Assembly (NCBI GenBank): GCA_005893225.1
Contig: VBOT01000105.1
Location: 1-42,148 of the forward strand
Length of the DNA: 42,148 nucleotides
Origin: Candidatus Eiseniibacteriota bacterium
GTDB lineage: Bacteria > Eisenbacteria > RBG-16-71-46
Direction of reading: 5' to 3'
A program made the position numbers and the translations under genes. This document shows positions 12,788 to 17,200 of this stretch, in pieces. How positions within the stretch are numbered: the stretch's first letter is position 1; each line of letters opens with the position of its first letter. The notes beneath the pieces are model-generated. The model had not been told where the DNA came from. It did no database searches and worked only from the letters and a program-made list of their open reading frames with translations.

Positions 12788-14248
12788 TTACTTCTTGCCC
12801 GGCCTCACGATCTTCAGCACCTGGCCGGCCGAGACGGGCTCGTCCCCCTCGGCGTTGTTGAGGATCTCGGTGTCCTCGAGGCTCAGGGCCTGGGGCCCGA
12901 GCCGAGGCACGACCTCCCCGAAGGTGCCCGACTCGGAAAGCGTCACCACATGGACGCGATCGGGCGTGGCGGCCAGGCGCCTGGCGTCGGCGAGCCCGCG
13001 GAACGAGCGCGCGCTCGCCAGGATCGCGCCTTCGAGCACGTCGCCGGGCTGGGTGCTTCTCCCCACGATCTCGAACATCCGATCCGCCTTGCGCACGAAC
13101 GCCCCCGCGAACGTGCCCTGCCCGCCCCCCTGGAGGTCGACCAGCAGGCGCCCGGCCCACGCCGGGAAGCCACCAATGGTCTCCGGCTCCCCTCGCGCGG
13201 TGGCGACCTTCCCGCCTCGCTCGAGGCTCGCCACGTACTCCGAGGGAGACTGTTCCCCGGCCTCGGCCAGCGTGAGCTGCATCCCGGCACGCTGGTCGGG
13301 CTCCACCGCCGCCACCGCCTCGTGCCCGTTCTGGGTTTTCCAGCCGCTCGGGAAGACCATCTCGAAGCCCAGTTCGGGATGGTAGAAGTGGCCGCCCTCG
13401 AAGTAGCCGTGCCGCGGGTCGTCGCCGAAGACGACGCCCTCGAGCCTCTGAACGTGGGCCTTGTTGCGGATCAGGAGCCCGGTCTTGCCGGCGGCGGCCT
13501 GCCGGGCCAGTTCGCTGGTGCGCTGCTCGCGGTCACCGGGGTCGGGATGGGTGGATAGGAACGCCGGCATGCGCTGGCCCGACCGCTCGCTCACCCGCTT
13601 GAGCACGGCGTAGGTCGAGGGAATCTCGCGCGGGTCGTAGCCGGCCTTGGTCGCGTATTCCACGCCGAGCTGATCGGCCTGGGTCTCGTCGTCGCGGCTG
13701 TACTTGAGGAAGATGATCCCGAGCGCGCTCTGGGCGGCGTCGCTGTAGCGGCGGAATCCCTCCGAGACGATTCCCGCCACGCCGAGCCCCAGCCCCGCGA
13801 TCTGCTGCTGCGTGATGCGCTGAGCGGTATGGCGCGCGGTGACGTGGCCGATCTCGTGTCCCAGCACGCCGGCGAGCTGCGCCTCGGAGTTCAGGTGCGC
13901 GATGATCCCGCGCGTGATGTAGATGTATCCGCCGGGCATCGCGAAGGCGTTCACGGTCGGATCGTCGAGCAGCGTGAAGTGCCATTCCAGATCCGGGAGG
14001 TGCGACACCTTCGCGAGCCGGTGGCCGACGCTGTCGACGTAGGCCTGGAGCTGCGGGTCCTGGTAGACGCCGTACTCCTTGAGGACCGCCGGGTATCCCT
14101 CGCGCCCGATCTGGAGCTCCTGGGCGGGGCTGACGAGCGAGAACTCCCGCCGCCCCGAGACCGGATTGGTCGCGCACCCGGCGAGGCCGAGCAGGGCGGC
14201 GGCGAGCGCGAGCGTCCGGGTCCGGTGCGTGGGGGTTCCCGGGCTCAA
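12788..14248 (-). CDS. M48 family metalloprotease, lipoprotein (BepA/YfgC-like)
   Basis: LAGC lipobox, NPVSGRREFSLVSPAQELQIGREGY, LGHEIGHVTARH (HEXXH), NAFAMPGGYIYITRG; TTG start overlaps the upstream stop (TTGA). Confidence 0.9.
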   Translation of the reverse strand: MSPGTPTHRTRTLALAAALLGLAGCATNPVSGRREFSLVSPAQELQIGREGYPAVLKEYGVYQDPQLQAYVDSVGHRLAKVSHLPDLEWHFTLLDDPTVNAFAMPGGYIYITRGIIAHLNSEAQLAGVLGHEIGHVTARHTAQRITQQQIAGLGLGVAGIVSEGFRRYSDAAQSALGIIFLKYSRDDETQADQLGVEYATKAGYDPREIPSTYAVLKRVSERSGQRMPAFLSTHPDPGDREQRTSELARQAAAGKTGLLIRNKAHVQRLEGVVFGDDPRHGYFEGGHFYHPELGFEMVFPSGWKTQNGHEAVAAVEPDQRAGMQLTLAEAGEQSPSEYVASLERGGKVATARGEPETIGGFPAWAGRLLVDLQGGGQGTFAGAFVRKADRMFEIVGRSTQPGDVLEGAILASARSFRGLADARRLAATPDRVHVVTLSESGTFGEVVPRLGPQALSLEDTEILNNAEGDEPVSAGQVLKIVRPGKK

Positions 14249-15765
14249 TAGCGCGGCACGCTCGGATCGACCTCGCGCGACCACGAGTCGATCCCGCCGC
14301 GCAGGTTCTTGAGCTTGCGAAAGCCGGCCTGGCGCAGCATCTGGAGCGCCCTCATGCTGCGCTGGCCGTGATGGCAGTGCAGCACGATCTCGCGACTGCT
14401 GTCGAGCTCGCTCATGCGCTCCGGCAGGTGATGGAGCGGGATCAGCGTCGAGCCGGGGATGCGCGCGATCTCGTACTCGTGAGGCTCGCGCACGTCGATC
14501 AGCGTGAAGTCCTCGCCACCGGCACGCTGGGCCTCCAGCTCGCGCACGCCGATCTCCCAGTCGGCCGCCTCGGCCCCGGCCTGCTCCTCGGGAGCGATGC
14601 CGCAGAACGCCTGGTAGTCGATGAGCTCCTTGATGCTCGGCCGCTCGCCGCACAGCGGGCACTCGGGGTCCTTCCGCAGCGTGAGTTCCCGGAAGCGCAG
14701 GGCGAGCGCGTCGAAGAGCAGCAACCGGCCGATCAGGCTCTCGCCCACGCCGAGGATGAGCTTGATGGTCTCGATCCCCTGGATCACGCCGATCACGCCC
14801 GGCAGCACGCCGAGCACCCCCCCCTCGGCGCACGAGGGCACGAGCCCGGGCGGCGGAGGATCGGGATAGAGGCAGCGGTAGCAGGGGCCGCGGCGCGCGT
14901 CGAACACGCTCGCCTGTCCTTCGAAGCGGAAGATGCTGCCGTAGACGTTGGGCTTGCCGAGCAGCGTGCACGCGTCGTTCACCAGGTAGCGGGTCGGGAA
15001 GTTGTCGGTGCCGTCGACCACCACGTCGAAGGGCCGGAGGATGTCGAGGGCGTTCTCGCTGGTGAGCCGCACCTCGTGCGCCTCCACCCGGACGTGGGGA
15101 TTGAGGTCGGACAGCCGCGCGGCCGCGGAGTCGAGCTTCGGCTGTCCCACGCTCGAGGTGCCGTGCAGGATCTGGCGCTGGAGATTGCTCTCCTCGACGC
15201 GATCGAAGTCCACGAGGCCGATGCGCCCCACACCGGCGGCCGCGAGGTAGAGCGCGAGCGGGGAGCCGAGCCCGCCGGCGCCCACCACCAGCACGCTCGC
15301 CGCCTTGAGCTTGCGCTGCCCCTCGAGCCCGACCTCGGGGAGGATGAGATGGCGGCCGTAGCGCAGCAGCTCCTCCGGACCGAGCGGCGGCAGGCCGTCT
15401 TCCCCGGTCGCCCAGGCGGGCGGCGCGGGCCCGCGGCGCGCGCCCGGCACGGTGGCGCTCTGCGAGCGCCCGCCTTCCCCCTGCGACCCTCCCGCGATGC
15501 TGGGCACGATCGACACCGTGTCGGAGGAGGAGAGCGGCGTCTCCTCGCCCTGGAGGTGCCTCACGTCCTCCTCGTTCCGGTAGACGTTGACGTAGCGCCT
15601 GAGCCGCCCGCTCTCGTCGAACAGGTGGCGGCGGAGCTGATCGTGGCGCGCCACCAGCTCGCGCAACGCCTCGCCCACCGTCGCGGCCTCGATCTCGACC
15701 ACGCTCTGCTGCGCCACGTACGGCCGGAGCGGGGTCGGTATGTGAACTCGGGTACGGGTCTTCAT
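14245..15765 (-). CDS. Fusion: CysO/MoaD-like sulfur carrier domain + ThiF/MoeB-type adenylyltransferase (E1-like) + C-terminal rhodanese
   Basis: IPTPLRPYVAQQSVVEIEAATVGEALRELV..RYVNVYRNEEDVRHLQGEETPLSSSDTVSIVPSIAGG (CysO-like), RYGRHLILPEVGLEGQRKLKAASVLVVGAGGLGSPLALYLAAAGVGRIGLVDFD..NLQRQILH (MoeB), CxxC pairs CYRC/CPLC, rhodanese FTLIDVREPHEYEIARIPGS..IVLHCHHGQRS. Confidence 0.93.
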   Translation of the reverse strand: MKTRTRVHIPTPLRPYVAQQSVVEIEAATVGEALRELVARHDQLRRHLFDESGRLRRYVNVYRNEEDVRHLQGEETPLSSSDTVSIVPSIAGGSQGEGGRSQSATVPGARRGPAPPAWATGEDGLPPLGPEELLRYGRHLILPEVGLEGQRKLKAASVLVVGAGGLGSPLALYLAAAGVGRIGLVDFDRVEESNLQRQILHGTSSVGQPKLDSAAARLSDLNPHVRVEAHEVRLTSENALDILRPFDVVVDGTDNFPTRYLVNDACTLLGKPNVYGSIFRFEGQASVFDARRGPCYRCLYPDPPPPGLVPSCAEGGVLGVLPGVIGVIQGIETIKLILGVGESLIGRLLLFDALALRFRELTLRKDPECPLCGERPSIKELIDYQAFCGIAPEEQAGAEAADWEIGVRELEAQRAGGEDFTLIDVREPHEYEIARIPGSTLIPLHHLPERMSELDSSREIVLHCHHGQRSMRALQMLRQAGFRKLKNLRGGIDSWSREVDPSVPRY

Positions 15766-16244
15766 CGACCATCGACTCCACCCCGCGCCGGGGAGGGCAC
15801 TCGCGCCAGCGGGTCCGCCTCGGGCAGGATCTCCAGCGTTTCGGGCTCGAACGCGGAGCGGTCCTCGGCCAGCCGCCAGGACCTCGAGTCGGCGGCCCGG
15901 CCACGCTCCACGCTCACGATCAGATACGAATAAAAGGGCCACGCGTTCTCCAGGTCGAAGGCGGAGGGGCGAGCCGGGTGATCGGGGTGCGAGTGGAAGA
16001 ACCCGACCACGTCGAGCCCCGCGGCCCTCGCCTCCTTCTCGGCGGCCAGGAACTGCTCCGGCGCGATCAGGTACCGGTTGTGGCGCGAGTCCTCGCGGCG
16101 GTTCTCGAACGGGATCGCGCGCTCGACCTCGCGCGCCCCGCCGAGGTCCCTGCCCACCAGCACGCCGCAGCCCTCCTCGGGATAGGCGCGGCACAGCTCG
16201 GCGTGGATCTCCACGGCCAAGCTCGCGCGCAGCCGCAGGCTCAT
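15762..16244 (-). CDS. JAMM/MPN+ metalloprotease, Mec-like
   Basis: PEEGCGVLVG..VVGFFHSHPDHPARPSAFDLENAW (HxH-x10-D JAMM motif); ATGA overlaps on both sides. Confidence 0.92.
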   Translation of the reverse strand: MSLRLRASLAVEIHAELCRAYPEEGCGVLVGRDLGGAREVERAIPFENRREDSRHNRYLIAPEQFLAAEKEARAAGLDVVGFFHSHPDHPARPSAFDLENAWPFYSYLIVSVERGRAADSRSWRLAEDRSAFEPETLEILPEADPLARVPSPARGGVDGR

Positions 16245-17200
16245 GCCCCCTCCCCCCACAGCGGATCATCCAGGTAACGCTCGGCCCCGTCCGGCAGGAT
16301 CGCCACCACCGTGCCGCGCTCGAGCTCGCGCGCCACGCGCTCGGCGGCCGCCAGCGCCGCCCCCGCCGACCAGCCGATCAGGAGCCCGAGGCGCGCCTGG
16401 CGCTTCGCCATGTCGATCGCGTCCTCGCTCGTCACCTCGAGCGTGCGCTGGTGGGCACCCGGGTCGTAGATCGCGGGCACCATGCAGCTCGCCAGGTGCT
16501 TGAGCCCTTCCAGCGCATGGTACGGCGAATCCGGCTGAACCGCGACCACCTCCAGCTCGGGCCTGAGCTCGCGCAGGCGGCGCGCCGTGCCGACCAGCGT
16601 CCCCGAGGTCCCGATCCCGGCGACCAGGTGCGTCACGCGGCCCTCGGTCTGGGCCCAGACCTCGGCGGCGGTGGTGCGGTAGTGCGCCTGCCAGTTGGCC
16701 GGGTTCGAGTACTGGTCGGGATAGAAGTAGCGGTCGGGCTCCTCGGCCACCATGCGCCGCGCCTCGCGAATCGCGCCGTCGGTGCCCTCCATGGGGCTCG
16801 TGAGCACGAGCTCGGCCCCGAACGCCTCGATCACGCGCAGCCGGCGCGCGCTGGCGTTGGCCGGCACGCACAGGCGCACGCGCAGCCCGCGCGCGGCGCC
16901 GATCCAGGCGTAGGCGATGCCGGTGTTCCCGGAGGTGGCGTCGATCAGGATCTTGTCCCGGGTCAGCGCCCCCGAGCGCTCCCCGGCCTGGACCATGCCC
17001 CAGGCTGCGCGATCTTTGACCGATCCGCCGGGATTGAACCACTCGGCCTTGCCGGACACCTCGACCCGCCCGGGCACCTCCCGGAGGCCGCCGATCGGCA
17101 GCAGCGGGGTGTCCCCGATCAGGTCAGTGAGAGCCGGAGAACCGAGAATGGAGTCAGGAGCGCGAACGTCCATAGATCGTGGGAGGGTGATGTCACTCAT
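16241..17200 (-). CDS. cysM: PLP-dependent cysteine synthase (CysM/O-phosphoserine sulfhydrylase-like)
   Basis: LIGDTPLLPIGGL..KAEWFNPGGSVKDRAAWGMV..DATSGNTGIAYAWIGAARG..GIGTSGTLVGTARRLRE; adjacency to JAMM and CysO-like genes. Confidence 0.9.
   Translation of the reverse strand: MSDITLPRSMDVRAPDSILGSPALTDLIGDTPLLPIGGLREVPGRVEVSGKAEWFNPGGSVKDRAAWGMVQAGERSGALTRDKILIDATSGNTGIAYAWIGAARGLRVRLCVPANASARRLRVIEAFGAELVLTSPMEGTDGAIREARRMVAEEPDRYFYPDQYSNPANWQAHYRTTAAEVWAQTEGRVTHLVAGIGTSGTLVGTARRLRELRPELEVVAVQPDSPYHALEGLKHLASCMVPAIYDPGAHQRTLEVTSEDAIDMAKRQARLGLLIGWSAGAALAAAERVARELERGTVVAILPDGAERYLDDPLWGEGA

Follow-up and report, generated by a model that had tools for sequence, protein, structure and literature searches.

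The three-gene operon described here probably encodes a cysteine pathway of the CysM-CysO-Mec type in which the sulfur carrier CysO is made on its own E1-rhodanese and is freed by a JAMM metallopeptidase cutting after Gly93. The genes lie on the minus strand of the window (the whole stretch of DNA analysed, 42,148 nucleotides) in the tight order CysM-type cysteine synthase, JAMM and fusion (17200..14245), and both junctions, cysteine synthase/JAMM and JAMM/fusion, are ATGA stop/start overlaps. A scan of the locus for promoters and terminators found none. The features are as follows:

16241..17200, minus strand: CysM-type cysteine synthase with a PLP fold, 319 aa counted from the likely ATG, stop at 16241-16243
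15762..16244, minus strand: Mec-type JAMM metallopeptidase, 160 aa plus stop, PF14464 (Prok-JAB) 91.8 bits
15954..15995, minus strand: JAMM catalytic motif HSHPDHPARPSAFD, residues 84-97, H84-x-H86-x7-S94-x2-D97
14245..15765, minus strand: single-chain CysO-E1-rhodanese, 506 aa plus stop, stop at 14245-14247
15487..15765, minus strand: CysO-like ubiquitin-fold domain, residues 1-93, PF02597 and CysO alignment
15487..15492, minus strand: internal diglycine G92-G93, cleavage predicted after G93
15385..15486, minus strand: Pro/Ala/Gly linker, residues 94-127, varying in length and sequence among fused proteins
14596..15384, minus strand: MoeB/ThiF adenylyltransferase (E1-like), residues 128-390, PF00899 278.6 bits
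14248..14535, minus strand: rhodanese domain, residues 411-506, PF00581 69.3 bits, CHHGQRS loop

The fusion is read in one frame (ORF 15765..14248) in which 413 residues continue past the GG, so that no free C-terminal GG is present, and its ThiS (7-93), ThiF (136-370) and Rhodanese (412-497) matches all score above the Pfam cut-offs. In alignment, M. tuberculosis CysO (93 aa; PDB 3dwg_C) matches residues 6-93, and its final residue coincides with the second glycine. The initial annotation, which had read a CysO-like N-terminus ending in SIVPSIAGG93, an in-frame linker into MoeB/ThiF and rhodanese, and an adjacent Mec-like JAMM with its motif, was thus correct on each count, down to the linker as quoted. 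Foldseek places the E1 domain with MoeB (1jw9_B, TM 0.94 by target length), and the E1-rhodanese scores 500 bits against NF005902 MoeZ, under that model's cut-off. The nearest solved structure to the JAMM is 2kcq, a Mov34/MPN/PAD-1 family protein, and HxH-x7-S-x2-D is intact in all 67 JAMM neighbours examined. The cysteine synthase matches PF00291 with 222.7 bits; TIGR01138 cysM (305.7 bits, against 264.1 for cysK, both under curated cut-offs) is its top-scoring single-function model, though below cut-off.

A free glycine carboxylate is needed for adenylation and thiocarboxylation of MoaD and ThiS. The same requirement applies to CysO and MoeZR (PMC3227635), so a fused CysO can function only once it has been cut. 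For this step the JAMM is the leading candidate, being adjacent, catalytically intact, linked to carrier masking across genomes and preceded by the example of DRJAMM. The anatomy, the conservation and the co-occurrence are observed here; the cleavage and its site, the sulfur chemistry and cysteine release are inferred. CysO would be made in one chain with its E1-rhodanese, at the N-terminal end; the adjoining JAMM would then cut behind Gly93, freeing the CysO carboxylate and leaving an E1-rhodanese that begins with a short disordered tail. The E1 would thus be a very long C-terminal extension, which tails of 1 to 32 residues could replace, since the JAMM would recognise the ubiquitin-fold-GG side and tolerate almost anything that follows.

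The linkage to masking emerged when the architecture search and JAMM co-occurrence check proposed in the initial annotation were carried out. A ubiquitin-fold alignment, used to scan one genome per species, gave at least 80 CysO-search loci, at least 31 of them fused. We call a GG masked when it is buried by 1-32 residues or by a whole E1-rhodanese, and exact when the carrier ends there. Pooling the CysO-search loci, the window's phylum and samples of Chloroflexota and Bacteroidota, which are not phylogenetically independent, a JAMM was present in the genome in 107 of 111 masked cases against 13 of 36 exact ones, and in 23 of 27 JAMM-less genomes the carrier ended exactly at GG. The four masked cases that had no clear JAMM (L084, L106, G028 and G133) include three from draft or fragmentary assemblies. 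Unexpectedly, free-standing carriers in these operons, which adjoin a JAMM, almost never end at GG; they continue into 1 to 32 unrelated residues (GGTI, GGWE, GGCARRCICR and others).

The same pattern holds locally. Among the 80 loci listed, of which two lie too close to a contig edge to be called, a local JAMM accompanied 58 masked carriers (31 extended, 27 fused) and a single exact one, and the loci where none was seen comprised 8 masked and 11 exact carriers. Among the matches listed, seven of nine masked loci with no JAMM nearby had one elsewhere in the genome (at least 50 bits), and ten of eleven exact-GG genomes with no adjacent JAMM had none at all at 50 bits. Within the window's phylum, a strong JAMM was found in 7/7 fused genomes versus 4/40 others (Fisher p=5e-6), in 9/10 genomes whose CysO- or SAMP1-like carrier is masked and in 0/11 with exact carriers only. 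One genome of the phylum, G025, has a JAMM and an E1-rhodanese with no carrier gene between them, its carrier lying elsewhere and ending in GGSIF. The Chloroflexota sample showed no association between masking and JAMM (p=1); it is uninformative on the rule because JAMMs are near-universal there.

The co-occurrence partly mirrors joint inheritance, since fused CysO and JAMM share one operon, and the exact-GG, JAMM-less loci belong mostly to one clade (Verrucomicrobia) and one phylum. Short extensions of split carriers may in part be by-products of overlapping start codons. L012-L031, free SAMP1-like carriers in the phylum, were considered as CysO and rejected as a more distant group (28-40% identity); they mostly end exactly at AVSGG and served as a contrast set. 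The verrucomicrobial CysO-like carriers (L098, L108, L109, L114, L118, L119, L124, L129, L131, L133 and L139) end exactly in IIPAIAGG, away from JAMM, E1 and CysM genes.

The tracking of JAMM with masking also bears on a second explanation, in which another protease cuts the fusion after GG and the JAMM, like Mec in M. tuberculosis, serves only to release cysteine from CysO-Cys. Cysteine release alone could account for a JAMM, given that M. tuberculosis CysO ends at GG and yet has Mec, so that JAMM presence does not require masking; in addition, the protease that processes MoaX was not identified in PMC4326299, and an M48-family metallopeptidase gene lies directly downstream of the fusion (12788 to about 14240, minus strand). 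This explanation leaves the tracking across genomes unaccounted for, however, and DRJAMM directly cleaves a homologous type of fusion. The M48 protein, moreover, is probably located outside the cytoplasm because it carries a lipoprotein-like signal (LALAAALLGLAGC), and its gene occurs near just one other fused operon (G034, L034:4056-5441). We therefore consider cleavage by another protease unlikely. A division of labour between two JAMMs is possible in some genomes, where maturation and cysteine release might be split: paired JAMM genes lie close together in Bacteroidota with the fused form (G202:C1:62871-65146, G276:C11:150740-152969 and G284:C15:46176-48407) and likewise in a Chloroflexota genome (G142:C161:21922-22693).

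Cleavage by the adjoining JAMM is also in keeping with how the fused protein is conserved. Fused orthologues occur in six further genomes of the window's phylum, in three families; the order CysM, JAMM, fusion recurs in the five with contigs long enough, and in the sixth (G018) the contig stops inside the JAMM. One fused orthologue in the phylum (G037, L032:2415) has a frame break inside the E1, through assembly error or decay. Beyond the phylum, fused loci among the matches listed come from Acidobacteria, Bacteroidota/Ignavibacteria, Rhodothermota, Gemmatimonadota, Chloroflexota and Thermoplasmata archaea. Both G92 and G93 are invariant in 37/37 aligned fused proteins, as are Cys 295, 298, 369 and 372 of the E1 domain and the rhodanese active-site Cys464; the catalytic residues of E1 and rhodanese are intact. 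The mean frequency of the top residue is 0.165 in the linker, compared with 0.672 in the ubiquitin-like domain and 0.80 in the E1. An AlphaFold (AF2) model built on the 37-sequence alignment (mean pLDDT 86) gives about 83-96 across most of the CysO-like domain and below 50 for residues 90-110, placing the GG in an exposed, low-confidence segment; the linker is accordingly predicted to be disordered.

The source assembly is a 3.37 Mb draft metagenome assembly, 88% complete. As the initial annotation had noted, the window holds no free-standing CysO, and none was found elsewhere in this 88%-complete assembly, whose remaining ThiS-family matches are one MoaD and one weak partial match. The JAMM adjoining the fusion is its sole strong Prok-JAB match, and its E1s comprise one MoeB-type and a second, weaker ThiF-family gene. 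No CysE scored above its cut-off in the same assembly, which, incomplete as it is, is consistent with an O-phosphoserine-dependent CysM. In a complete Rhodothermales chromosome (G047) the sole CysO is likewise the fused one; two other carriers there lie outside any CysO context, one clearly of MoaD type.

A tree built from 70 E1 domains (loci from the matches listed) requires 12 changes between the fused and split states, of which well-supported branches force at least three. Because the states switch repeatedly, the two forms appear functionally interchangeable. Among Solibacter-type loci, the carrier stop TGA overlaps the TTG that starts the E1 in L120 and L122 (ATTGACG), and in L126 and L136 the junction is read straight through, so that close relatives differ at the junction only. 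Small insertions or deletions at such an overlapping junction would make or undo the fusion. That repeated changes of this kind are tolerated argues that the cell must remove whatever follows the GG.

These observations weigh against a third explanation, that the fusion stays uncut and its ubiquitin-fold domain serves the E1 in regulation or docking, with a free carrier elsewhere doing the chemistry. Iyer et al. 2006 (PMC1779556) did assign a different role to the N-terminal ubiquitin-like domains of some ThiF proteins (for example in Campylobacter), which are found alongside a standalone ThiS, and an assembly at this level of completeness leaves room for a free carrier. A docking domain, however, would not need the invariant GG; no second CysO was seen in this assembly or in the complete G047 chromosome; and near-identical operons exchange fused and split forms. 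We regard an uncut fusion as highly improbable. A sequencing or assembly error concealing a stop codon after AGG, which the initial annotation had raised, is very unlikely to the point of being negligible: although the assembly is a metagenomic draft, relatives with the split form exist and the G037 break may be such an error, the fused frame occurs at 38 of the 70 loci with an E1 (among the matches listed), in many independent assemblies including a finished chromosome, with differing linkers, 14-45 residues long when measured to the RYSRH motif.

A second masked carrier is present in the same genome. Its MoaD (L001; G000:C33:4636-5505, minus strand) continues in the same frame beyond PPVSGG, through AGTAAGG, to a GNAT-like domain. 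Within the phylum, only G025 (L243; the source genome's fusion is also recorded as L242) shares this MoaD-GNAT fusion; in most relatives MoaD ends at or near GG with a GNAT gene adjoining. Both genomes have a strong JAMM, which lends small-number support to one JAMM acting on two precursors. A putative JAMM-less MoaD-GNAT fusion in G013 was rejected, as its upstream part is not MoaD. In its broadest form, which we hold to be about evenly balanced between right and wrong, one JAMM would mature all masked CysO- and MoaD-type carriers of this genome (CysO-E1-rhodanese and MoaD-GNAT) and also release cysteine; cysteine and Moco synthesis would both depend on it, any downstream gene could fuse to a carrier because the JAMM would accept almost anything after GG, and fused and split forms would trade freely. 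Other in-frame arrangements were seen in these or related genomes that have a JAMM (ThiS followed by a ThiG-like part and MoaD by a MoaE-like part; L170, L143 and L147). In Bacteroidota, L238-L241 have a ubiquitin-fold domain in open frames of 685-692 aa ending in MAMSGG, apparently a carrier attached C-terminally to another enzyme.

Together, these results suggest for Mec-type JAMMs a role in maturation beside the cysteine release known in M. tuberculosis. The system would be a counterpart, in bacteria and archaea, of ubiquitin precursor maturation, with the activating enzyme itself as the part that is cut away. The masking rule offers a cheap predictor of prokaryotic carriers that need maturation, and natural fused/split pairs among close relatives are ready-made test material.

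In the QbsE/QbsD and HcyS/HcyD systems, residues after the GG are removed by a JAMM protease before thiocarboxylation; the tails are one or two residues and no enzyme is fused. The present idea is not new in kind, the architecture, the operon class and JAB release having already been published. Release of fused ThiS/MoaD by a JAB protein was proposed in general terms by Iyer et al. 2006 (PMC1779556), whose class 4c combines a ThiS/MoaD-like protein, an E1-rhodanese, a JAB and a cysteine synthase, as here; class 4c, as listed, gives the carrier its own gene, whereas here it is fused. MoaD-MoeBR fusion families with an identical domain order were catalogued in 2024 (clusters 356.2 and 356.3, mainly in unclassified Euryarchaeota and Poseidoniales, with transfer from Acidobacteria likely); in the parts of that paper drawn on here, they are presented as molybdopterin fusions, without a link to JAMM or cysteine synthase (PMC11237513). 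A limited search of open-access papers found no statement tying this fusion to JAMM and cysteine synthase, and none that tail masking goes with JAMM. What is new is the GG-masking rule, the link to a cysteine operon and the second masked carrier. The earlier proposal that the JAMM frees the GG gains comparative support from the invariant GG and the masking counts, but the question was less open than had been thought (PMC1779556, PMC8832034, PMC4326299, PMC11237513).

A close parallel, which was drawn in the initial annotation and holds against the comparative tests, is the M. tuberculosis CysM-CysO-Mec-MoeZR pathway, in which the roles of MoeZR, CysM and Mec have been described (PMC3227635). 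The same four activities are predicted here, including a MoeZR-like E1-rhodanese and a Mec-type JAMM; M. tuberculosis CysO, however, is free and ends at GG, and an extra maturation cut would be needed here because CysO is fused to the E1. For such a cut, Deinococcus DRJAMM (DR0402) cleaves a MoaD-MoaE fusion after GG (PMC8832034), and M. tuberculosis MoaX is cut after Gly82, with Gly81 mattering for recognition (PMC4326299). Both substrates are, like the CysO fusion, ubiquitin-fold sulfur carriers with an internal GG; they release MoaE, an acceptor enzyme of the Moco pathway, whereas the part released here would be the E1 activator of a cysteine pathway.
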